From: Thermoplasmata archaeon
GTDB lineage: Archaea; Thermoplasmatota; Thermoplasmata; Thermoplasmatales; Thermoplasmataceae
Direction of reading: 5' to 3'
Length of the DNA: 10,976 bases
NCBI GenBank assembly: GCA_021797025.1
Contig: JAKAAK010000093.1
Span: 1 to 10,976 of the forward strand
A model generated the notes under the pieces. That model was not told the DNA's origin. It saw nothing but the letters and a program-made list of their open reading frames with translations, and searched no databases. The position numbers were made by a program, and so were the translations under genes. Positions 1-10,617 of this stretch are shown here, one piece after another. Each line of letters begins with the position of its first letter. Within the stretch, counting starts at the first letter, position 1.

Positions 1-665
1 AATCCCTGGGATTTAAAGTAATTGTCTATTGCTTCCGGTTTGGCCACTTTATTTCCATAAGCATTGCAGAGAAGTAGCATTTCAGGAGCTGATATTCTGT
101 TTACAACGAAGCCGGCTTCGTCTTTCAGTACTTTAATAGGTACTTTTCCAATTTTTTTGGATATTTCATATATTTCCTCAATATATTCCATGGATGTTTT
201 ATCACCTTTTATCACCTCTACAAGCTTCATAAGTATAGGGGGATTGAAAAAGTGCATTCCAAGAAATCTCTCGGGATTTTTTATTTCCTTTGCCATTTCC
301 GTAATTCGTATATTGGATGTGTTGGAAGCTACAATTTTATCTGTATGGTCTGCAATTTCCTTTAGTACCTTCACCTTTATATTGTATATTTCAGGAACCA
401 CTTCAATGGATAAATCTGCATTTTTTACTGCCTCTTCAATAGTATTAAAATATTTTATGTGATCCAATGCTGCCTGTTTCCCAGCCTCGTCTATTTTCTT
501 CGAGGCAAGAAGCTTATCAAGGCTATTATTCAATCCTTTCTTTGCTTTCTCTATGACCTCTGGATAAAAATCTTCCAGATTTACATCATAGCCATTCAAT
601 GCAAAAACTTCTGCTATGCTGTGCCCCATTACACCGGCACCGATAACTGCTACCTGCTTAATCAT
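1..665 (-). CDS. 3-hydroxyacyl-CoA dehydrogenase, NAD-binding domain (partial, C-terminus beyond left edge)
   Basis: Reading the minus strand from ATG at 665 gives 221 residues open to the window edge. The N-terminus is a Rossmann fold with GAGVMG at residues 9-14 and an acidic residue (D32) at the end of the second strand, as expected for NAD binding. Catalytic residues of the family line up with a constant offset from the human mitochondrial enzyme: S117 in ASNTSN, H138 in GMHFFNPP, E150 in KLVEVI, and N189 in GFVVNR, where the C-terminal domain begins. The enzyme oxidises (3S)-3-hydroxyacyl-CoA to 3-oxoacyl-CoA in beta-oxidation. It diverges from the acyl-CoA synthetase operon and shares its 211-base intergenic region. 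Whether it is a stand-alone enzyme of about 300 residues or the archaeal dehydrogenase-crotonase fusion cannot be told because the 3' part is outside the window. The family call is firm; the substrate is inferred. Confidence 0.93.
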   Translation of the reverse strand, partial: MIKQVAVIGAGVMGHSIAEVFALNGYDVNLEDFYPEVIEKAKKGLNNSLDKLLASKKIDEAGKQAALDHIKYFNTIEEAVKNADLSIEVVPEIYNIKVKVLKEIADHTDKIVASNTSNIRITEMAKEIKNPERFLGMHFFNPPILMKLVEVIKGDKTSMEYIEEIYEISKKIGKVPIKVLKDEAGFVVNRISAPEMLLLCNAYGNKVAKPEAIDNYFKSQG

Positions 666-876: not shown

Positions 877-2454
877 ATGGTAGACTTTAAGCTGACAATC
901 AACAATCTCCTGGATGCTGCCGTAAGATCTAATGGAAATCAGCAGATAGTGTATGGAAATAAAACCATAACGTACAAATCATTCGAAAAGAATGTAAAAA
1001 ATTTTGCGGCAAACCTCAGGAAAATCGGTGTGAAGCCGGGGGATAGAATAGCTGTTCTGGATTATGATACCATAAATTATCTCTATTGTTATTACTCAAT
1101 CCCCATGATAGGCGCGGTAATTCATATGGTTAATATTAGATATCCGTCGGAGATACTATACTATACAATAAAAAATTCGGAGGATTCATATCTTGTAGTG
1201 AATGCCGATTTCATGCCACTGATTCTCCAGTACAAGGATATGTTTGATTTTATCAAGGGATTTATCGTGTATTCAGAAAAAGGCCATGATAAATATGATC
1301 TCAGGAACGTATATTTCGTCGATGACCTCCTGAAGGATGCAGAATATAAGGAGAGACAGCCGGATGAAAATAGCATGGCAACTCTTTTCTATACCTCCGG
1401 AACCACCGGACTTCCCAAGGGCGTTTACTATTCACATAAACAACTTGTACTCCATAGCCTGGCATCATCTGTGGCTTTGGCGGATGAACCGATATCTTTT
1501 AAAAGGACGGCTGTTATGCTTCCGCTTGTTCCCATGTTCCATGTTCATGCATGGGGAATCCCATATTTCACTATCATGCGGGGGATAAAATATGTTCTTC
1601 CGGGAAAGTATGAATGGGATAGAATAGTGGGAACAATGGAAAAAGAAAAGGTTACAAATTCTGCAATGGTACCTTCAATACTTTACCTGCTGTTGCAGGC
1701 AAAACGTGGACCGGAAGTGATGGGGAAACTGAAATTGACAACTATTATAGGCGGTGCAGCACTCAATGAAGGTCTGGCTAAAACTGCCGAATCCCTCGGC
1801 ATGACCGTTATAACCGGTTATGGCATGTCCGAAACAGGTCCTATACTGACACTGGCAAGTTATAGTAATGCCGTTATGGAATTTGACAGCGAAAAGAAGC
1901 AGGAATACAGAAGAAAAACAGGAATACCCATACCATTTGTCAATCTGCGTGTTGCATCCGGTGGAAAAGACGTTGAGAAAAACAATAAAGAAATCGGTGA
2001 AATAATAGTTCAGGCTCCATGGCTTACGGAAGGATACATAAAAGACCCGGAAAAAACTGCAAAACTATGGAAGGATGGCTGGCTTCATACTGGCGATCTT
2101 GCAACCATGGATGAATATGGATATATTAAAATCGTAGACAGGGAGAGCGATGCGGTAAAGTCCGGTGGAGAATTCATTCCATCCATGGTACTGGAGGATC
2201 TTATCAGCACGGTACCAGGTGTCGGTGAGGTTGCAGTTACAAAAAAGGCGGATGAAAAATGGGGAGAGCGCCCTGTTGCCTTCATAAAGGGAACCGCAAG
2301 CAGGGAAGCAATAGAAAAAGTAATGAAAGAATATGTTGACACAGGAAGAATAGCCAAATTCTGGCTACCCGATGATTACATATTTGTGGATGAATTTGAA
2401 AAAACAGGAACCGGAAAGATAAATAAAGTGGTTCTGAGGAAAAAGTTGGAGTGA
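877..2454 (+). CDS. Acyl-CoA synthetase (AMP-forming, fatty-acid--CoA ligase type)
   Basis: A 525-residue member of the ANL adenylate-forming superfamily, close to the usual FadD/AlkK-type length. Motifs in order: phosphate-binding loop YTSGTTGLPKG at 172-182, GYGMSETG at 314-321, the hinge/ribose-binding DRESD at 421-425, VKSGGEF at 427-433, and the adenylation lysine K514 in TGTGKINK near the C-terminus. It activates a carboxylic acid, probably a medium- or long-chain fatty acid, to acyl-CoA with ATP via an acyl-adenylate; no signal peptide or membrane segment is seen, so it is cytosolic. It heads an operon with thiolase and two acyl-CoA dehydrogenase genes, which supports fatty-acid degradation over an acetyl-CoA synthetase role. 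Odd point: the common DRxKD hinge motif reads DRESD, lacking the lysine. The leaderless-type promoter supports the ATG at 877. Chain-length specificity cannot be read from the sequence. Confidence 0.93.
   Translation: MVDFKLTINNLLDAAVRSNGNQQIVYGNKTITYKSFEKNVKNFAANLRKIGVKPGDRIAVLDYDTINYLYCYYSIPMIGAVIHMVNIRYPSEILYYTIKNSEDSYLVVNADFMPLILQYKDMFDFIKGFIVYSEKGHDKYDLRNVYFVDDLLKDAEYKERQPDENSMATLFYTSGTTGLPKGVYYSHKQLVLHSLASSVALADEPISFKRTAVMLPLVPMFHVHAWGIPYFTIMRGIKYVLPGKYEWDRIVGTMEKEKVTNSAMVPSILYLLLQAKRGPEVMGKLKLTTIIGGAALNEGLAKTAESLGMTVITGYGMSETGPILTLASYSNAVMEFDSEKKQEYRRKTGIPIPFVNLRVASGGKDVEKNNKEIGEIIVQAPWLTEGYIKDPEKTAKLWKDGWLHTGDLATMDEYGYIKIVDRESDAVKSGGEFIPSMVLEDLISTVPGVGEVAVTKKADEKWGERPVAFIKGTASREAIEKVMKEYVDTGRIAKFWLPDDYIFVDEFEKTGTGKINKVVLRKKLE
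2448..2454 (+). promoter_or_regulatory. Shine-Dalgarno site that fixes the thiolase start
   Basis: GGAGTGA lies five bases before the ATG at 2460 and contains the TGA stop of the upstream gene. It argues against the in-frame GTG at 2451, which is itself part of this site. Confidence 0.75.
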
Positions 2455-2459
2455 ATAAT

Positions 2460-3635
2460 ATGGAAGAAGTTTATATAGTAGACTACAGGAGAATACCGTT
2501 CTCAAGGGCACGGCCCAGGGAACCGGAAAAGGATGTGTATAATGATTTAAGAATGGATAAAATGCTGTCAGAACTGATTAAGCTCTCTGTCAAGGAGACG
2601 AAAATCAATCCAGCTGAAATCGAGGATGTAATAACCGGTTGCGCCTTTCAGGCAGGTGAAAACTGGACATACGGTGGAAGACACCCAGTGCTGCTGGCTG
2701 ATTTACCGGTATCCGTGCCTGCCATGTCCATGGATCGGGCATGCTCATCTTCATTGAATGCAACAGCAATTGCATCCATGGAAATTATGACTGGAAGGGC
2801 AGGCATTACCATTGCTGGTGGAATGGAGCACATGACCCATGTGCCACTGGGAATAGATAATCCGTTTATAAAGCCAAATATGGAACTCATGGTCAATCCA
2901 AAATATGCCAAATTCAATATGAATGTATCATATAACATGGGGTTGACAGCAGAAAAACTTGCAGGTTTGAGGAAAATATCCCGAGATGAAATGGATGAAT
3001 ATTCCTACAACTCACACAAGAGGGCAGAAAAAGCATACGAAGATGGTTTCATGAAAGGCGAACTCATGCCTGTTACGGTTAACGGCACTACCATAGATAA
3101 AGATCTGGGGATAAGAAAGGATGTTTCCCTTGAACAGATCAAATCATTGAGGCCGGCATTCGCGGAAAATGGAGTAATAACCGCAGCCAATTCATCATCT
3201 CTTAATGATGGAGCATCAATGGTAATGTTAATGTCCGGATCAAAGGTTAAAGAATACGGAATGAAACCACTTGCAAGAATAGTTGATTTTGCCGCAGCTG
3301 GTGTTGATCCCACAATAATGGGTGCCGGTCCGGTTCCAGCAACAGAGAAGGTACTGCAAAGAAACAAACTTTCCCCGGATGATATCGATTACTGGGAAAT
3401 AAACGAGGCCTTTGCTGTTGTGGTTCTCAACGCAGTACATGCATTCAACCTTGATCTTGAAAGGGTGAATATACATGGTGGTGGCATATCAGTAGGGCAT
3501 CCTCTTGGTGCCACGGGCGCGAGGCTTGCAGGTACCCTGGGAAGAACCTTACAGGCCAAAAAGAAAACTCTTGGAATAGCCACATTATGTGTTGGTGGCG
3601 GCCAGGGATATTCAATGTTACTGGAGCGTGTTTAA
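2460..3635 (+). CDS. Acetyl-CoA acetyltransferase / 3-ketoacyl-CoA thiolase
   Basis: A 391-residue thiolase of the degradative/biosynthetic FadA-AtoB family with normal length. The nucleophilic cysteine is C95 in DRACSSS, the NEAFA motif is present, H347 lies in GGGISVGHPLGATGAR, and the second cysteine C377 is in CVGGGQG. These positions nearly match the 89/348/378 triad of the Zoogloea enzyme, so the protein should be active. It cleaves 3-oxoacyl-CoA with CoA to acetyl-CoA and a shortened acyl-CoA, the last step of beta-oxidation, or runs in reverse as acetoacetyl-CoA synthase. The ATG at 2460 is chosen over the in-frame GTG at 2451 because GGAGTGA sits exactly five bases before the ATG. 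It starts five bases after the acyl-CoA synthetase stop and abuts the next gene, so it is co-transcribed and translationally coupled. The operon favours the degradative role. Confidence 0.94.
   Translation: MEEVYIVDYRRIPFSRARPREPEKDVYNDLRMDKMLSELIKLSVKETKINPAEIEDVITGCAFQAGENWTYGGRHPVLLADLPVSVPAMSMDRACSSSLNATAIASMEIMTGRAGITIAGGMEHMTHVPLGIDNPFIKPNMELMVNPKYAKFNMNVSYNMGLTAEKLAGLRKISRDEMDEYSYNSHKRAEKAYEDGFMKGELMPVTVNGTTIDKDLGIRKDVSLEQIKSLRPAFAENGVITAANSSSLNDGASMVMLMSGSKVKEYGMKPLARIVDFAAAGVDPTIMGAGPVPATEKVLQRNKLSPDDIDYWEINEAFAVVVLNAVHAFNLDLERVNIHGGGISVGHPLGATGARLAGTLGRTLQAKKKTLGIATLCVGGGQGYSMLLERV
3623..3626 (+). promoter_or_regulatory. Shine-Dalgarno site of the first acyl-CoA dehydrogenase gene
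   Basis: GGAG inside the last thiolase codons lies nine bases before the ATG at 3636. The ATG follows the thiolase TAA with no gap, so translation is probably coupled. Confidence 0.55.
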
Positions 3636-4715
3636 ATGTTTGAAGAACTGGATGATTACAGAAACAAAATCAGGGAGTTTGCCCTGAAAGAATTTACAGA
3701 AGAGGTTGCTGCTGAGTACGATAGAAAGGAATCATATCCTGACTATCTTAGGAAAAAATCATTATCACTAGGGATAGTAGATATGCAGAATCCTGCCAAG
3801 GTACTGATAGCCATAGAGGAGCTCTGTAGGGTGGATGCTGGCCTCGGCATAGCACTTACGACACCATATTTCGGCAGTGAGGTTATCATGCTATTCGGCA
3901 ATGATAAGCAGAAGGAAATCCTGAACGATGTATATCGTGGGAAGTATATACTGGGGCTTGGTGTAACAGAACCATCGGGTGGAAGTGATGTTGCAGCCCT
4001 GAAAACTACCGCCAAAAAGCAGGGCAATAAATACATACTCAACGGTTCAAAGATGTTCATAACCAACGGTGCAATAGCAGATTATCTGGTCATACTGGCA
4101 AGAACATCAGAGGATTCAAATCCACACCACGGCCTCAGTACATTTCTTCTGAACACCAAATCAAAGGGTTTCAGTGCAACAAAACTGGAGGACAAGCTCG
4201 GAGTAAGGGCAACAAACACCGCCGAACTTCAATTCAACAACATTGAACTGTCCGAGGATGACCTTATAGGTGAAGAGGGCAAGGGTTTTTACTATATTAT
4301 GATGTTCTTCAATATCAGCAGAATTTATGTTGCAGCGCAGTCCATCGGCATAGCCAGGGGGGCTTTTGATAAAATTAAATCTTACATAAAGGAGAACAAT
4401 ATCAAGGACGAGGATTCTATGTTCCAGCTTTCTGATGTGGGAACAAGAATAGAGGCTTCCATCCAGATGACATACAATGCAGCATCCTATCTGTTTGAAT
4501 TCAAGCCAAAACCTGAACTCACAAGCATGGCAAAGGCTTATAGCAGTGAAACTGCAGTTTTTGCAGCTGAGGAGGCAATGGAAATCCTCGGAGACCGGTC
4601 ACTGTATGAAGACGTCCAGAGGATATTCAGGAACGCAAAAATTATGGAAATCTGGGAAGGTACAAGTGAAATTGAGAAACTCGTTATTGCTAGATACATA
4701 TTGAAAGGTGAATAA
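3636..4715 (+). CDS. Acyl-CoA dehydrogenase homologue, catalytic subunit of a probable heteromeric enzyme
   Basis: A 359-residue acyl-CoA dehydrogenase (ACAD) fold protein, somewhat shorter than the usual 380. It keeps the family signature TEPSGGSD at 111-118, which contacts flavin and substrate, and the catalytic base E341 in IWEGTSEI. Elements normally supplied to the neighbouring subunit are missing: the RxxFG stretch after the first C-terminal helix is replaced by ENNIKDEDSMF, and the GGYGY adenine-binding loop reads GDRSLYEDV. The N-terminal PEEYGG-type loop is also deleted between the second and third helices (around residues 46-55). The next gene keeps exactly these parts. I infer that the two proteins form one enzyme oxidising acyl-CoA to trans-2-enoyl-CoA and passing electrons to ETF; no ETF gene is in the window. 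Family membership is certain; the heteromer is inference. Confidence 0.9.
   Translation: MFEELDDYRNKIREFALKEFTEEVAAEYDRKESYPDYLRKKSLSLGIVDMQNPAKVLIAIEELCRVDAGLGIALTTPYFGSEVIMLFGNDKQKEILNDVYRGKYILGLGVTEPSGGSDVAALKTTAKKQGNKYILNGSKMFITNGAIADYLVILARTSEDSNPHHGLSTFLLNTKSKGFSATKLEDKLGVRATNTAELQFNNIELSEDDLIGEEGKGFYYIMMFFNISRIYVAAQSIGIARGAFDKIKSYIKENNIKDEDSMFQLSDVGTRIEASIQMTYNAASYLFEFKPKPELTSMAKAYSSETAVFAAEEAMEILGDRSLYEDVQRIFRNAKIMEIWEGTSEIEKLVIARYILKGE
4706..4711 (+). promoter_or_regulatory. Shine-Dalgarno site that fixes the second acyl-CoA dehydrogenase start
   Basis: AGGTGA lies five bases before the ATG at 4717, the same spacing as at the thiolase gene. The in-frame GTG at 4708 is part of this site and so is unlikely to be the start. 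Confidence 0.7.
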
Positions 4716-4716
4716 A

Positions 4717-5703
4717 ATGGAAGAGGAAAACAATATACTCAGGGAAACTGTAGCAGAATTCTGTGAAAAAAACCTTGATGAAAAGAAAATAGAAACAGAT
4801 GGAATCGATAAGAAATTAACACAACTCTTGGCGGAACAGGGATTCCTTGGGTGTGCAATACCCGATAAGTACTCCGGATCGGGACTGGATGAAACATCTT
4901 ACGAAATTATTCTTGAGGAAATTGCAAAATATTCCCCCACGGTGGCAATGAGAATATTTGTCTTAAACTCTATGTACTATCCGGCTGTTAATGGTACTGC
5001 AGCAGAAGAAACATTGAAGGATGCATCAACGGGAAAAATTAATATTGCGGTAGATTTTATCAATAAAAAAACTGGTAATGAATCTGTTTCAGGAAAGATC
5101 AAGGGCACACTGAAAAACATACTTGGAACAGATGCCGATAAACTCGTCGTATTCAATGATGGTACATCCCTTGTTTCAGGACCCTTTAAATCGGAGTCCA
5201 GGGATTTCATGGGCTTCCGCGGATTGAAGTTTGGTGACCTATTCCTTGATAACAGTGTTCAGGTTCTCGATAAAAGCAACAGATTGTCAGAAATAATGGA
5301 AAAAGCATACGGTCCCGCATCAGCAATCGCACTGGGCATGATAGCCAGTGCACTGCAGAAGGCTATAGACTATACAAATGTAAGAAAGGCATTCGGCAGC
5401 CAGCTCAGGGATTTCGAACCGGTTTCTTTCAGGCTGGCAAGGTTCAGGTCCACAGAGGTAATTTTGAGAAATTCACTTTATGGCAAGGTAGACCCATATT
5501 ACACATTTAACTTTGCCATGGAGCACCTAGTGGAAATTGCAAGATATTCTGTAAATACTCACGGTGGATACGGGTATTTCAAGGATTTCGGTGTTGAGAA
5601 GTTTTACAGGGACGCCATTGTGATGAAATCCATATTCTACGGCACAGAAGAACTCAGAAAGCTTACCGATCATGTTTACTCTGAAAAAATAAATTTTATA
5701 TAA
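4717..5703 (+). CDS. Acyl-CoA dehydrogenase homologue lacking the catalytic glutamate, partner subunit
   Basis: A 328-residue ACAD-fold protein, about 50 residues short of the family norm; most of the loss is in the middle beta domain. It keeps the IPDKYSGSGL loop (the PEEYGG equivalent), RKAFG at 223-227 and GGYGY at 283-287 followed by VEKFYRDA. In homotetrameric ACADs these segments bind the ADP part of FAD held by the neighbouring subunit. It lacks the TEPxxGSD signature, and at the catalytic site it reads FYGTEE (Y308, G309) where the family has YEGT, so the glutamate base is deleted. It is therefore unlikely to be active alone. It begins one base after the stop of the preceding ACAD gene, which lacks just the segments present here. 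The ATG at 4717 is supported by AGGTGA five bases upstream. Pairing with its neighbour is inference; the family call is strong. Confidence 0.87.
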   Translation: MEEENNILRETVAEFCEKNLDEKKIETDGIDKKLTQLLAEQGFLGCAIPDKYSGSGLDETSYEIILEEIAKYSPTVAMRIFVLNSMYYPAVNGTAAEETLKDASTGKINIAVDFINKKTGNESVSGKIKGTLKNILGTDADKLVVFNDGTSLVSGPFKSESRDFMGFRGLKFGDLFLDNSVQVLDKSNRLSEIMEKAYGPASAIALGMIASALQKAIDYTNVRKAFGSQLRDFEPVSFRLARFRSTEVILRNSLYGKVDPYYTFNFAMEHLVEIARYSVNTHGGYGYFKDFGVEKFYRDAIVMKSIFYGTEELRKLTDHVYSEKINFI

Positions 5704-5725: not shown

Positions 5726-6271
5726 TCAGTGAAATATTTTCGCACTGTAAGCATAGATTGAAGAATTTTTGTAACAATCTTTTTTCATGCCAGCCTTTAT
5801 GCATGTTTCCATTATGAATTCATCCATGGTTAAATTATTCTCTACCGCAACCTGTGGAAGCAGTGTGCCTGAATATATTCCATTTTCTATATAAACACCG
5901 TATTTTCCCGGAACGGCTAACCGTATATCTTTATATTCTACCTCTTTCAATTCACCTATTACTGTGACCTCTATAGAAATTCTATTGATCTCATCATTAT
6001 TCATGGGATCAAACCTGGGGTCTCTGTATGCTGCATTCCATGCTGCTTTCTCCACAGCCTTTACCAGTGGCATCACGGGCTTCAGATAACCTATGCACCC
6101 CCTTAACCTATTATTCTCGGTCAGGGTGACAAAAGCCCCTGCCCTGTTTTCCAGTTTTTCAGGAATGTTATCTATCGGTTTATCATCACCGGTTATGGCA
6201 TTTCTTGCAATGTCTATCAGTGTTTTTCCATCTGCATCATTTAAATTTTCAATGAACTCATCCTGTAACAT
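5726..6271 (-). CDS. AMMECR1-domain protein (AmmeMemoRadiSam system protein A)
   Basis: A 181-residue protein made of a single AMMECR1 domain. The hallmark LRGCIG is at residues 56-61, followed by a conserved YRDPRF segment, IEVTVI, LLPQVAVE and the C-terminal CIKAGM. The biochemical role of the family is not settled; the invariant RGC cysteine (C59) suggests a catalytic or ligand-binding site. The domain is typically encoded near, or fused to, a MEMO domain and near a radical SAM gene, as found here, so it probably acts with the two divergent neighbours. An upstream in-frame TTG at 6286 would add five residues, but the ATG at 6271 has a TATA box (6294-6302) about 27 bases before it and fits a leaderless transcript. 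It is convergent with the ACAD operon, with 22 bases between stops. Confidence 0.92.
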   Translation of the reverse strand: MLQDEFIENLNDADGKTLIDIARNAITGDDKPIDNIPEKLENRAGAFVTLTENNRLRGCIGYLKPVMPLVKAVEKAAWNAAYRDPRFDPMNNDEINRISIEVTVIGELKEVEYKDIRLAVPGKYGVYIENGIYSGTLLPQVAVENNLTMDEFIMETCIKAGMKKDCYKNSSIYAYSAKIFH

Positions 6272-6293
6272 AATAAGATATATCAATCATTCA

Positions 6294-6302
6294 GATATAT
6301 AG
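6294..6302 (-). promoter_or_regulatory. TATA box of the AMMECR1 gene
   Basis: CTATATATC on the minus strand is centred 27 bases before the ATG at 6271 and supports that start over the TTG at 6286. Confidence 0.65.
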
Positions 6303-6377
6303 ATTTTTAGTATATGGATCGTATCATTCATGAACTGTATGACTATTCAAAAAGTATATTGAAAATTATTTATTAAG

Positions 6378-6403
6378 AAAAATAATGTTTTAACATTATT
6401 TTT
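6378..6403. promoter_or_regulatory. Perfect 12-bp inverted repeat, candidate operator between AMMECR1 and MEMO genes
   Basis: AAAAATAATGTT and AACATTATTTTT flank a two-base TT centre. The site ends 16 bases before the MEMO TATA box at 6420 and lies about 76 bases upstream of the AMMECR1 TATA box, so a dimeric regulator here would mainly affect MEMO but could act on both. AT-rich DNA makes palindromes more likely, yet twelve consecutive pairs are well beyond what is typical. Confidence 0.5.
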
Positions 6404-6419
6404 GAAACTTTTATATAAA

Positions 6420-6431
6420 CTTTATATAAAG
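6420..6431 (+). promoter_or_regulatory. TATA box of the MEMO gene, with an upstream duplicate
   Basis: CTTTATATAAAG lies about 23 bases before the ATG at 6449. A near copy, CTTTTATATAAA, directly precedes it at 6408-6419, so two overlapping promoters are possible. The proximal one fits a leaderless transcript. Confidence 0.65.
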
Positions 6432-6448
6432 CATAGTAATCCTTTTAT

Positions 6449-7264
6449 ATGGATAATACCAGGGAAGCCTATGTCTCCGGTGCATTCTACCCGGACGATT
6501 ATGAAAAACTAAAGAATGATATAAAAAGTTATTTGGATATAACTACTCCGGACTTAACCTATAAAAAACTAATCGGGGCCATTGTTCCACATGCAGGTTA
6601 TATATATTCAGGCAGGACAGCTGCGTATGCCTACAGCATAATAAAAAATTCCAAAAAAAGGGATTTTTTAATTATAGGGCCAAATCATTCAGGATATCCT
6701 TCCTATCCTGCTATTTACCCGGACGGCTACTGGAACACACCCATGGGATATGCAAAAGTAAACTCTGAACTTTCAAGTAAAATTCTTTTAAAGTCCAACA
6801 TTATAAGGGATGATAAAGAGGCACATATGATAGAGCACTCCATTGAGGTTCAGATCCCGTTTCTCCAGTATATTTTTAACAATAATTTCACATTTTCACC
6901 CATGGTTCTGGGCAATCAGAGTCAGGCTATGTCGCGAAATATAGCAGAAACTATAGAGACACTGGAGGAAAAGCCAATCCTGCTCATAAGTTCAGATCTC
7001 AACCATTATAATGGGTATAATAGAAACAACGAGCTTGATAATATAATAATAAGGGATATTGAGGAACTGCATGTAGGAAAATATTATGAAGATATAAAGA
7101 AATATGGCATATCTGCCTGCGGTTACGGAGCCATAGCTGTACTTATGATGGTAACCCGTCAGATGAAAGGGAAAATAGCACTTTTGAATCACAGCAATTC
7201 CGGGGATTATGGGACAGATCGTGATAGGGTCGTAGGGTATGCATCTATGATAGCATATAAATAA
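6449..7264 (+). CDS. MEMO-family protein (AmmeMemoRadiSam system protein B)
   Basis: A 271-residue MEMO/LigB-like protein of full family length. Conserved blocks in order: VPHAGYIYSG with H48, IGPNHSG with H80, EHSIEVQIPFLQ, ISSDLNHY, SACGYGA with C224, and SNSGDY near the C-terminus. H48, H80 and C224 correspond to the metal-site residues H49, H81 and C244 of human MEMO1, so the metal site appears intact. The fold is related to class III extradiol dioxygenases, but no dioxygenase activity is established for the family and its reaction is unresolved. It diverges from AMMECR1 and is followed 74 bases later by the radical SAM gene, completing the conserved trio. The start at 6449 is supported by a TATA box at leaderless distance. 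The family call is firm; the function is unknown. Confidence 0.94.
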   Translation: MDNTREAYVSGAFYPDDYEKLKNDIKSYLDITTPDLTYKKLIGAIVPHAGYIYSGRTAAYAYSIIKNSKKRDFLIIGPNHSGYPSYPAIYPDGYWNTPMGYAKVNSELSSKILLKSNIIRDDKEAHMIEHSIEVQIPFLQYIFNNNFTFSPMVLGNQSQAMSRNIAETIETLEEKPILLISSDLNHYNGYNRNNELDNIIIRDIEELHVGKYYEDIKKYGISACGYGAIAVLMMVTRQMKGKIALLNHSNSGDYGTDRDRVVGYASMIAYK

Positions 7265-7308
7265 TAATTCCGGACATGAAATTATAATTCCCGGAGAAAT
7301 TGATATAG

Positions 7309-7317
7309 TATAAATAT
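7309..7317 (+). promoter_or_regulatory. TATA box of the AmmeMemoRadiSam radical SAM gene
   Basis: TATAAATAT lies about 26 bases before the ATG at 7339. The radical SAM gene therefore seems to have its own leaderless promoter rather than depending only on read-through from the MEMO gene. Confidence 0.65.
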
Positions 7318-7338
7318 CTGTAATGCGATTAAATATAT

Positions 7339-8355
7339 ATGGAAGCCAGTTTATATGAAAAAAAGGGCGACAGAATACGGTGCACAGCCTGTGAAAGATA
7401 CTGTTACCTGAGGGAAGGCCAGAGTGGCTTCTGCGGGGTCAGGACATTCAAAAACGGGGTTCTGAATCTTGATGTTTATAATTATCCATCCGGCTATAAT
7501 GTAGACCCTATTGAGAAAAAGCCTGTTCTGCATATGTATCCCGGTTCAAGAATACTTTCCTTTGGAACTTCAGGATGCAATTTTGCATGCAAATACTGTC
7601 AGAATTATGAAATGAGCCAGAGAAAAACCGTTGAAGGTGAATACATGACACCTGAGAAAATAATTAAAATAGCCAGAAAATTGCAGGTGGACGGTATAGC
7701 GTATACATATAATGAACCCACAATTTTCATGGAATTTGCACATGATGTGGGAATCCTGGCTCATAAACAGGGGTTATTCAACATATTTGTAACCAATGGT
7801 TACGAAACTCCAGAATCCATGGAAATGGCAGCTGAATTTCTGGATGCTATGACCATTGATTTCAAGGGAAACGCAGAGGAAAAATTCTATAACCGATATA
7901 TATCCGTAATGCACCCGGATTTGATATATAAAACCATAGAATCTGCACTGAATCACGGGATCCATACAGAAATCACTGATCTTGTTATACCAGAGATCGG
8001 AGACAATCTTGATGCTGCGGAAAAGATGATAGCAAAAATAAAGGATATCGGTGGGGAATACATGCCCGTAAGTTTTCTTAGATATCACCCTGATTACAAA
8101 TTATCCCTGCCCTATACGCCCCTCGAAACATTGAAAAAACATTATAACCTTGCCAAATCCATGGGTATGCATTATGTTTATCTGGGCAATGTCCGGGAAG
8201 AAAATTATGAAAATACATACTGCCCTGGATGTGGAGCACTCTTAATTCAAAGGCATGGTTTTGATTCAACCATAATAAATCTGAACTCCGATGGTAGCTG
8301 CACACATTGTGGCTTCCAAACCGGAATACTTCTTAAGACTGATATTATCCAGTAA
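7339..8355 (+). CDS. AmmeMemoRadiSam system radical SAM enzyme
   Basis: A 338-residue radical SAM protein of the pyruvate-formate-lyase-activase-like group. The SAM-cluster motif CNFACKYC places C80, C84 and C87 around the 4Fe-4S centre that cleaves SAM to a 5'-deoxyadenosyl radical. Before it lies a cysteine-rich N-terminal segment (C15, C18, C22, C32) leading into GFCG, and after the barrel a zinc-ribbon- or rubredoxin-like tail has CPGC (C295, C298) and CTHC (C321, C324). These extra cysteines could hold a metal or an additional cluster. The family is named for its co-occurrence with AMMECR1 and MEMO genes, both immediately upstream here; the substrate is unknown. The ATG at 7339 has a TATA box at leaderless distance. 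Its 3' end overlaps the convergent small gene by 11 bases. Confidence 0.93.
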   Translation: MEASLYEKKGDRIRCTACERYCYLREGQSGFCGVRTFKNGVLNLDVYNYPSGYNVDPIEKKPVLHMYPGSRILSFGTSGCNFACKYCQNYEMSQRKTVEGEYMTPEKIIKIARKLQVDGIAYTYNEPTIFMEFAHDVGILAHKQGLFNIFVTNGYETPESMEMAAEFLDAMTIDFKGNAEEKFYNRYISVMHPDLIYKTIESALNHGIHTEITDLVIPEIGDNLDAAEKMIAKIKDIGGEYMPVSFLRYHPDYKLSLPYTPLETLKKHYNLAKSMGMHYVYLGNVREENYENTYCPGCGALLIQRHGFDSTIINLNSDGSCTHCGFQTGILLKTDIIQ

Positions 8356-9523: not shown

Positions 9524-10390
9524 ATGAAAACTATACGTATCGGTGCACTGGCTGACTCTGGCGATCTGTACCCATTTATACCATTAATAGAAAAGAAGAT
9601 AAAAAGCGATGATTTCAATATGGAATTTGAATTTATACCTACCGTCCAGGAAGTCAATGACAAGATTGTTAAGAAAGAAGTTGACATTTCAGTTCCATCT
9701 GCCGCTCTCTATCCATATATACAGAAAGATTACTTCATTCTTTCCAGTGCAGTAGCATCCGCGGTGGATGGGATAACCGGAATGCCTATTCTTGCAATGA
9801 AAAATATGGATATGGATGATATCAAAAATTCAAAAATTATTGTACATGGTTTGAATACAACAGCATTCAATCTTTATAAGCTATTGATTGGCAAATACAA
9901 AAAGCTTGTTGTGGTTCACAGAGTTCTGGATGAGGTCAATGCCATGGTTGAGGAAGACGGTGTTATGGTAGCTGTCCACGAACTTAAAGCAATGTATGAT
10001 TTAAAGAAAATGGGTGTTGAGCCAAAGAGGATCGCCAGTATGTGGGAAATGTGGAAAGAATTATCAGGAAACAAGCCCATGCCAATGGGTACAGTAGTTA
10101 TAAATTCGGATATCGGTGAAGAATATGCTCTCAAGTTCAAGGAATTATACAACAGGAGTAAAAAATATGCAGAGTACCACATGGATGAAATTCTGCCGGT
10201 AGATGTAAAGATTATGAGGGAGGTGCAAAATTCCGATATCAGTCTGGACATAATAAAAGGTACAATCGGGGCCGATGTCAAAGAATATAACGTATCCTTA
10301 GATGATGTAAAATCAGGGATGGAATTTTTCTATGATATAATGTACAGGAAAAACCTACTTCCTGGCGTTAAAGAGTTAAGATTAATTTAA
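9524..10390 (+). CDS. Divergent MqnA/MqnD-family protein (1,4-dihydroxy-6-naphthoate synthase-like)
   Basis: A 288-residue protein of periplasmic-binding-protein fold without a signal peptide, hence probably an enzyme in the cytosol. The second half matches the MqnD pattern: a GVMVAVHE segment with the conserved histidine at H152, then ...KELSGNKPMPMGTVVI, equivalent to the family's WW..TG.P.PLGG region, and a C-terminal MREVQNSDISLDIIKGTIG helix region. MqnD cleaves cyclic dehypoxanthinyl futalosine to 1,4-dihydroxy-6-naphthoate in the futalosine route to menaquinone, a quinone found in Thermoplasmatales. The first half is diverged: the usual PNDTF motif reads DSGDLYPF and the GxGCGP loop reads VDGITGMP. 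It may therefore be a lineage-specific MqnD, a related enzyme, or a binding protein. It is monocistronic, with a leaderless-type promoter. No other menaquinone gene is in the window. Confidence 0.65.
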   Translation: MKTIRIGALADSGDLYPFIPLIEKKIKSDDFNMEFEFIPTVQEVNDKIVKKEVDISVPSAALYPYIQKDYFILSSAVASAVDGITGMPILAMKNMDMDDIKNSKIIVHGLNTTAFNLYKLLIGKYKKLVVVHRVLDEVNAMVEEDGVMVAVHELKAMYDLKKMGVEPKRIASMWEMWKELSGNKPMPMGTVVINSDIGEEYALKFKELYNRSKKYAEYHMDEILPVDVKIMREVQNSDISLDIIKGTIGADVKEYNVSLDDVKSGMEFFYDIMYRKNLLPGVKELRLI

Positions 10391-10508: not shown

Positions 10509-10545
10509 AAATATAAGCTTTAACTTATAAACTCCTGATTAGAAG

Positions 10546-10617
10546 TGGGCCCGACCGGATTCGGACCGGTGACCTTCTCCGTGTCAGGGAGACATCATAC
10601 CACTAGACTACGAGCCC
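10546..10617 (-). tRNA. tRNA-Val (anticodon GAC)
   Basis: The 72-base minus-strand sequence folds as a cloverleaf. The acceptor arm GGGCTCG/CGGGCCC pairs fully with one G-U, and the discriminator is A73. The D arm is weak: G10-U25, U11-A24, C12-G23, with U13/U22 unpaired. The anticodon stem TCTCC/GGAGA has five pairs around the loop CTGACAC, giving anticodon GAC (valine, decoding GUC and GUU). The T arm ACCGG/CCGGT has five pairs. CCA is not encoded and no intron is seen. Unusual: the T loop is TCCGAAT, with C at position 55 where uridine (later pseudouridine) is nearly universal. The flanks AGAAG and CTTCT are complementary and could extend the acceptor helix in the precursor, with A73 bulged. 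Confidence 0.93.

Follow-up and report, generated by a model that had tools for sequence, protein, structure and literature searches.

A stretch of 10,976 nucleotides from a Thermoplasmata archaeon (hereafter the window; G000:C37:11837-22812, minus strand, of a genome of 1.59 Mb in 161 contigs, the host being probably acid-loving) encodes two adjacent acyl-CoA dehydrogenase (ACAD) homologues, A and B, which have lost complementary halves of the ACAD active site. Our comparative analysis argues that the two proteins very probably form one obligate heteromeric enzyme, presumably an alpha2beta2 tetramer, for ordinary beta-oxidation. An original prediction, made from the letters of the window, had reported the complementary losses and proposed an obligate heteromer to explain them; its residue observations are confirmed here, and its interpretation is supported by the sequence comparisons.

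In ACADs the flavin ring of each flavin adenine dinucleotide (FAD) sits in one chain, and its ADP part lies against the Arg/Phe and GGxG elements of the partner chain. The elements of A and B that bear on this arrangement are as follows (window coordinates).

3636..4715, + strand: protein A (proposed alpha-like subunit), 359 aa, with the flavin-ring half-site and the catalytic Glu341
3966..3989, + strand: A residues 111-118, TEPSGGSD, kept; T, E, G, S and D in 48/48
4392..4406, + strand: A residues 253-257, a short, variable loop; RxxFG segment missing
4587..4610, + strand: A residues 318-325, LGDRSLYE, standing where the GGxG loop would be
4656..4658, + strand: A Glu341, the catalytic base at the SCAD/MCAD position, within WEGT; 48/48
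4717..5703, + strand: protein B (proposed beta-like subunit), 328 aa, with the ADP-binding half-site, no catalytic Glu and an eroded middle domain
5383..5397, + strand: B residues 223-227, RKAFG, kept; R and F in 48/48
5563..5577, + strand: B residues 283-287, GGYGY, kept in 48/48 (HGGYGY = 282-287)
5635..5652, + strand: B residues 307-312, FYGTEE, at the place of the canonical xEGTxE; no Glu (0/48)

These counts refer to the 48 A/B pairs that were aligned, namely those of the 76 paired places for which the DNA was fetched and whole (omissions include the pair of T. volcanium, those of G016 and a truncated A of G008). Every one of the 48 A proteins has the catalytic Glu and, from TEPxxGSD, the T, E, G, S and D; in the window's A these stand just where the original prediction had placed them. 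All of 24 A sequences compared share T111, E112, G116-D118, W340, E341 and G342; TDSxxGSD replaces TEPxxGSD in four A sequences of family f14 outside the 48. Pfam recognises the N-terminal, middle and C-terminal ACAD domains of A, all over cut-off. The predicted loss by A of RxxFG, of GGxG and of a PEEYGG loop proved equally general: the Arg, the Phe and the double Gly are each found in 0/48, and the PEKYGG loop is deleted in 48/48. A second alignment put an Arg into the RxxF column of 3/48 A proteins, with a Phe in none of them. In a text check the anchor was located in 34/48 A, and an RxxF occurred nearby in 8 of these, by eye elsewhere in the chain. The combination expected of SCAD/MCAD-like homotetramers, RxxFG and GGxG in the Glu-bearing chain, is thus absent from A throughout the 48 pairs.

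Protein B is the complement of A. Its Arg, Phe and GGYG are kept in 48/48 pairs, and R223, F226 and H282-G286 are invariant across 61 B sequences; the TEPxxGSD motif is gone, and the catalytic Glu is found in 0/48 at its usual place and in 0/48 at the alternative (IVD/LCAD) position, in agreement, for the window's B, with what had been predicted for RKAFG, GGYGY, TEPxxGSD and FYGTEE. The N- and C-terminal ACAD domains of Pfam match B over cut-off, and no match to the middle domain was found at E<=10, in a search whose HMMER filters drop most weak matches.

To judge such losses, 48 rows of canonical ACADs served as a control: Arg and Phe are present in 48/48, the second Gly in 47/48 and the Glu in 47/48, and in the sole row without Glu at the usual place the alternative, IVD-type position carries one. 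The eight tested positions are unchanged together in 29/48; the remaining deviations mostly exchange T and S within TEPxxGSD. Because canonical rows keep the Arg, Phe, Gly and Glu, the loss of a whole half-site in both A and B is far beyond chance.

Conservation within each protein follows its proposed role. In A (24 sequences), TEPSGGSD (0.92), FITNG (0.96) and WEGTSE (0.95) stand above the value for the whole protein (0.74), and the former ADP-loop places fall to 0.38 and 0.50. In B (61 sequences), HGGYGY (1.00), EKFYRD (0.98) and RKAFG (0.74) exceed the overall 0.56, and the middle region (0.42) and the former EGT segment (0.46) lie below it. B diverges faster than A: over the same 1128 comparisons mean identity is 0.37 for B vs 0.62 for A, and A is the higher in 1126.

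We propose that A and B would act as alpha-like and beta-like subunits of one obligate heteromeric ACAD, most likely alpha2beta2. A would bind acyl-CoA and the flavin ring and supply the base, Glu341; B, its own catalytic pocket lost, would reach over the dimer interface, where its RKAFG and HGGYGY loop would hold the ADP part of the FAD seated in A. A location of FAD at the A-B interface, with its ADP held by B, agrees with the retained residues. Since a homodimer of A would have no ADP clamp and a homodimer of B no flavin pocket or base, only the A:B combination would complete a site, giving one working and one dead FAD site per dimer. The enzyme would perform the first step of beta-oxidation, alongside the FadD, thiolase and 3-hydroxyacyl-CoA dehydrogenase/enoyl-CoA hydratase (HCDH-ECH) of the cluster, and its electrons would pass to electron transfer flavoprotein (ETF). 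It is the complex as such, with its stoichiometry, activity, substrate and electron acceptor, that we infer.

An obligate complex of this kind predicts that the two genes travel together, and this was followed in two sets of genomes. The first set of 101 genomes (that of the window and 100 relatives) gave 77 A-type matches (at least 347 bits, plus three partial) and 77 B-type matches (at least 136 bits, plus two in G016 and one, in two pieces, in G032). A B lies directly downstream of 76/77 A-type genes, on the same strand and with a gap of 3-66 bp, the remaining A being cut by a contig end; 76/77 B-type genes adjoin an A, and the 77th (G016:C6) adjoins a fragmented A. Both types occur in 75 of the 101 genomes and neither in 26. 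Two complete A-B pairs are present in G014 (G014:C42 and G014:C3; L028, L078). The second set comprised 300 genomes of the window's class (B-type >300 bits, A-type E<=1e-120), with B-type in 60 genomes, A-type in 61 and both in 59; A occurs by itself in G032 (B in two frames) and G145 (contig end), and B by itself in G080, whose A is cut at the contig start. Of nine further pairs checked beyond the first set, 9/9 are adjacent. In total, 86/86 B-type places are next to an A (one A fragmented) and 85/88 A-type places have a B directly downstream; of the remaining three, contig ends cut two, and one is a real loner. The neighbour co-occurrence suggested as a check on the original idea therefore holds, and the finding that would have spoken against it, many relatives with one gene only, was not made.

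The monomer model of B shows a confident ACAD fold with a reduced beta region, and it aligns with ACADs over the full length of B, residues 281-290 having the lowest confidence. The model thus places B in the ACAD superfamily despite the missing Pfam middle domain. Modelling was also applied to a fused A-B chain, for which the in-frame neighbours of L086 (A, one stop, B) were read through as one protein. Other alignments for fused chains were rejected, as they had separate A or B rows in the wrong halves, displaced B rows or too few rows.

The fused model reached a predicted TM-score (pTM) of 0.51, with the B half mostly at a per-residue confidence (pLDDT) <50, its alignment being too shallow there (almost no B rows, and P0043 shifted at its start), and it bears on the complex in neither direction. 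Two observations weigh against an obligate A-B heteromer. Genome G270 has a second, lone A-type gene (L186 4385-5539, G270:C23; 435 bits), and the 9-kb stretch that holds it contains no B; this A, too, has neither RxxFG nor GGxG, and the B at another place in the G270 genome may be its partner as well. By eye, it adjoins a frame resembling 3-hydroxyacyl-CoA dehydrogenase. In Thermoplasma volcanium GSS1 (G032) the B gene is split into two frames of 161 and 185 aa (L066 5744-6756) while A is one open frame with a thiolase match upstream; the split is either a sequencing error or a real break. The lone A and the split B would suit an A that works by itself as a homo-oligomer holding FAD in a different manner, B being a dispensable paralogue or a chaperone, and so would the conserved flavin-ring-side residues and base of A. 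Such an A is nevertheless very unlikely, given that B accompanies it in 85/88 places and that the ADP loops, for which a chaperone would have no need, are among the most conserved parts of B.

Could B instead serve another, canonical ACAD, modulating it or binding ADP for it? Mixed dimers would be compatible with the fold, and the window's genome offers three canonical ACADs as partners; however, canonical ACADs already own RxxF (48/48) and GG (47/48), and gene order ties B to A in all 86 places found, which makes this arrangement extremely unlikely. It is also highly unlikely that the pair, though of ACAD fold, is no dehydrogenase and instead binds acyl-CoA or serves in stress. Nothing direct speaks for it, beyond the fact that ACAD homologues with other roles are known (from the part of PMC6851490 at hand), whereas Glu341 and the TEPxxGSD residues are kept in 48/48, a thiolase is adjacent in 28/29 loci, and FadD and HCDH-ECH stand alongside in the window's genome. 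We consequently keep to the heteromeric dehydrogenase as the preferred reading.

The genomic setting fits the predicted role of the A-B enzyme in beta-oxidation. The other genes concerned are:

877..2454, + strand: acyl-CoA ligase (FadD-like), first gene of the run, overlapping the thiolase by 4 bases
2451..3635, + strand: thiolase (acetyl-CoA acyltransferase), directly upstream of A; the thiolase-A-B triplet is conserved
1..665, - strand: 3-hydroxyacyl-CoA dehydrogenase, N-terminal part, divergent from the A-B run

The thiolase stop touches the A start, and one base separates A from B, whose start is taken as ATG 4717 (a mechanical list of open reading frames begins B at GTG 4708). Because these overlaps and gaps are so tight, co-translation of FadD, thiolase, A and B is suggested. 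An enoyl-CoA hydratase domain lies about 0.5 kb beyond the window on the minus strand, in a frame of 647 aa; judging from its position, this frame and the HCDH part at 1..665 are probably one protein, in which case the locus would encode every step of beta-oxidation. The original prediction of an archaeal counterpart inside a fatty-acid operon is matched by the archaeal relatives and by the FadD, the thiolase and the divergent HCDH-ECH frame. Among 29 A-B loci examined (one place being represented twice), the gene immediately before A is a thiolase in 28, and a FadD-like match is present in 17. The window's genome has ETF genes, including two long frames (614 and 566 aa), and carries the three canonical ACADs mentioned above; one of these, L001 (G000:C75), has Ala at the SCAD-type Glu position and Glu at the IVD/LCAD position. 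Just downstream of B, at 5726-8355, genes for AMMECR1 (-), Memo (+) and a radical SAM protein (+) are grouped; further on lie a protein of the Pfam family VitK2_biosynth (menaquinone biosynthesis) at 9524-10390 (+) and a tRNA-Val (GAC) gene at 10545-10617 (-).

The search of whole genomes for B covered the window's class, where B-type places belong to families f1, f3 and f4 of the window's order and to f14 and f31 outside it; none was found in the genomes searched of f5, of the same order. Among 5.8 billion proteins, a search that scored 7,996 candidates returned 450 matches, of which 120 were listed. Among the matches listed, the B family has at least 87 proteins (P0001-P0087; 291-446 bits) without the middle domain, and the next match, at 193 bits, is an ACAD with that domain. 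Labels, carried by a minority of the listed B family, include Ferroplasma, Acidiplasma, Oxyplasma, Caldiplasma and other Thermoplasmata, the sole labelled exception being a metagenome-assembled genome (P0025) assigned to Nitrososphaerales, which we take to be mis-binned; the Ferroplasma proteins are 62 and 70% identical to the window B, which makes Ferroplasma or a close relation of it the probable host. A scan of genome contigs gave at least 80 loci, the first two of which, L086 and L087 (the latter labelled Euryarchaeota), are B-type; the remaining loci have <=28% identity to B and were taken for canonical ACADs, about a dozen being checked.

Available text of PMC6678751 sets the homotetramers or homodimers of beta-oxidation ACADs against the 'unusual' heterotetramers of cholesterol side-chain breakdown. 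An archaeal heteromeric ACAD was not found in titles and abstracts among the open-licence papers listed, and an earlier mention in papers on the known heteromers is possible. If our reading is true, bulky steroid substrates would be no precondition for dividing one enzyme between a catalytic and a cofactor-holding subunit, and the division may have arisen twice. It would also bear on the many ACAD genes of these archaea, whose roles are described as difficult to discern in a passage of PMC3750248. For annotators, B is probably no enzyme by itself.

The closest known parallel to A-B is provided by the bacterial steroid enzymes ChsE4-ChsE5, ChsE1-ChsE2 and IpdE1-IpdE2, likewise encoded as two adjacent ACAD paralogues. 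In the part of PMC11153573 devoted to ChsE4-ChsE5, the alpha subunit binds the isoalloxazine and holds the Glu and the substrate site, and beta contacts the ADP-ribose; this description matches the shared-site logic of the original prediction, which had named steroid FadE pairs as known cases. The corresponding part of PMC8399759 assigns a single Glu and a single FAD to each alpha-beta dimer, the heterotetramer being essential for activity. A and B resemble these enzymes in having the catalytic Glu in one subunit only (A 48/48, B 0/48), and the flavin-ring site with the Glu in one paralogue and the ADP-binding loops in the other. They differ in the place of the base. Two positions are distinguished in the same portion of PMC11153573, that of LCAD Glu291, common to IVD and M. 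tuberculosis ACADs, and that of MCAD Glu405, common to MCAD, VLCAD, SCAD and IBD. In 48/48 archaeal A the Glu occupies the second of these, the SCAD/MCAD position, and the first, the IVD/LCAD position, is taken by S or T.

For comparison, the IpdE2 model was run against 246 genomes of an actinobacterial phylum, giving five places at E<=1e-80, four of them over cut-off. Longer stretches were taken around three of these places, of which two score over and one under cut-off, and the 11 of their 12 ACAD-like frames that have at least 280 aa were used: five with SEPxxGSD as alpha-like and six without it as beta-like, putative labels of our own, assigned by motif. Two of the three genomes are near-copies (alpha-like rows 88-91% identical). 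The division seen in A-B recurs here, with the Arg and Phe in 6/6 beta-like and 0/5 alpha-like rows, and 5/5 alpha-like rows have the Glu at the IVD/LCAD position, with A or G at the SCAD position. The archaeal pair is not filed with the steroid alpha2beta2 ACADs because A lacks the Glu position that defines their alpha subunit; A-B also differs in sitting in a beta-oxidation cluster of an archaeal host, and B reaches 26.5 bits with NF050027, the curated model of IpdE2, whose cut-off is 450.

In the fold searches no ChsE or IpdE chain was among the matches listed, a result that carries no weight. In PDB profile searches the best match of A is the SCAD-like 5lnx (301 bits), and those of B are 6fah (179 bits) and 5lnx (169 bits); no ChsE or IpdE name appears among the 60 matches listed of 141 for A and the 60 of 109 for B. 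The list for B includes Tcur3481 (72 bits), presumably a heteromer chain, the only one that we recognised by name. The SCAD/MmgC/AcrC-like ACADs, which are homotetramers, thus supply the best PDB matches and share with A-B the fold and with A the Glu position; unlike A-B, which divides the half-sites between two genes, they have both in every chain. The large and small subunits of pimeloyl-CoA dehydrogenase (PimC/PimD; TIGR03204/TIGR03203) are by name another two-subunit ACAD outside steroid metabolism, and they match weakly (A to PimC 86.2 bits and to PimD 53.4; B to PimD 17.1).

As regards origin, two quick trees were built, the first with 58 rows and the second with 47; they took in 13 and 8, respectively, of the 24 A rows and as many of the 24 B rows, along with selected canonical rows. 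A and B each form one clade (support 100) in both. A sits among canonical ACADs without strong support, and B stands beside the steroid-cluster beta-like rows (Shimodaira-Hasegawa-like approximate likelihood ratio, SH-aLRT, 94), both B and steroid beta being long branches. Topology tests rejected neither 'A with steroid alpha-like rows' (approximately unbiased test, p-AU 0.352) nor 'A with B' (p-AU 0.274). The placement of B, the retention of the first of these topologies and the same division of half-sites would be accounted for if A-B shared an ancestral heteromer with the steroid enzymes, with transfer between bacteria and archaea, an account of origin only and compatible with the proposed mechanism; with the Glu at different places, SCAD-like chains ahead of Tcur3481 in the PDB searches, and A among canonical ACADs, we consider it possible but rather unlikely. 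Our preference leans, slightly, to the idea that Thermoplasmata independently evolved an obligate two-gene ACAD from a SCAD-type enzyme, used in ordinary beta-oxidation, which would be a second origin of the split site with the base elsewhere. The original suggestion that the archaeal pair is possibly convergent is not settled by the trees; since neither alternative topology is rejected, we do not claim convergence as shown, and find it plausible mainly because the position of the catalytic Glu differs rather than because of the trees. Overall, while the split-site design itself is already known from the steroid enzymes, its archaeal beta-oxidation version with a different Glu place appears to be new, and on the best reading of the sequences the archaeal pair would work like the bacterial steroid ChsE/IpdE enzymes without being a member of their group.
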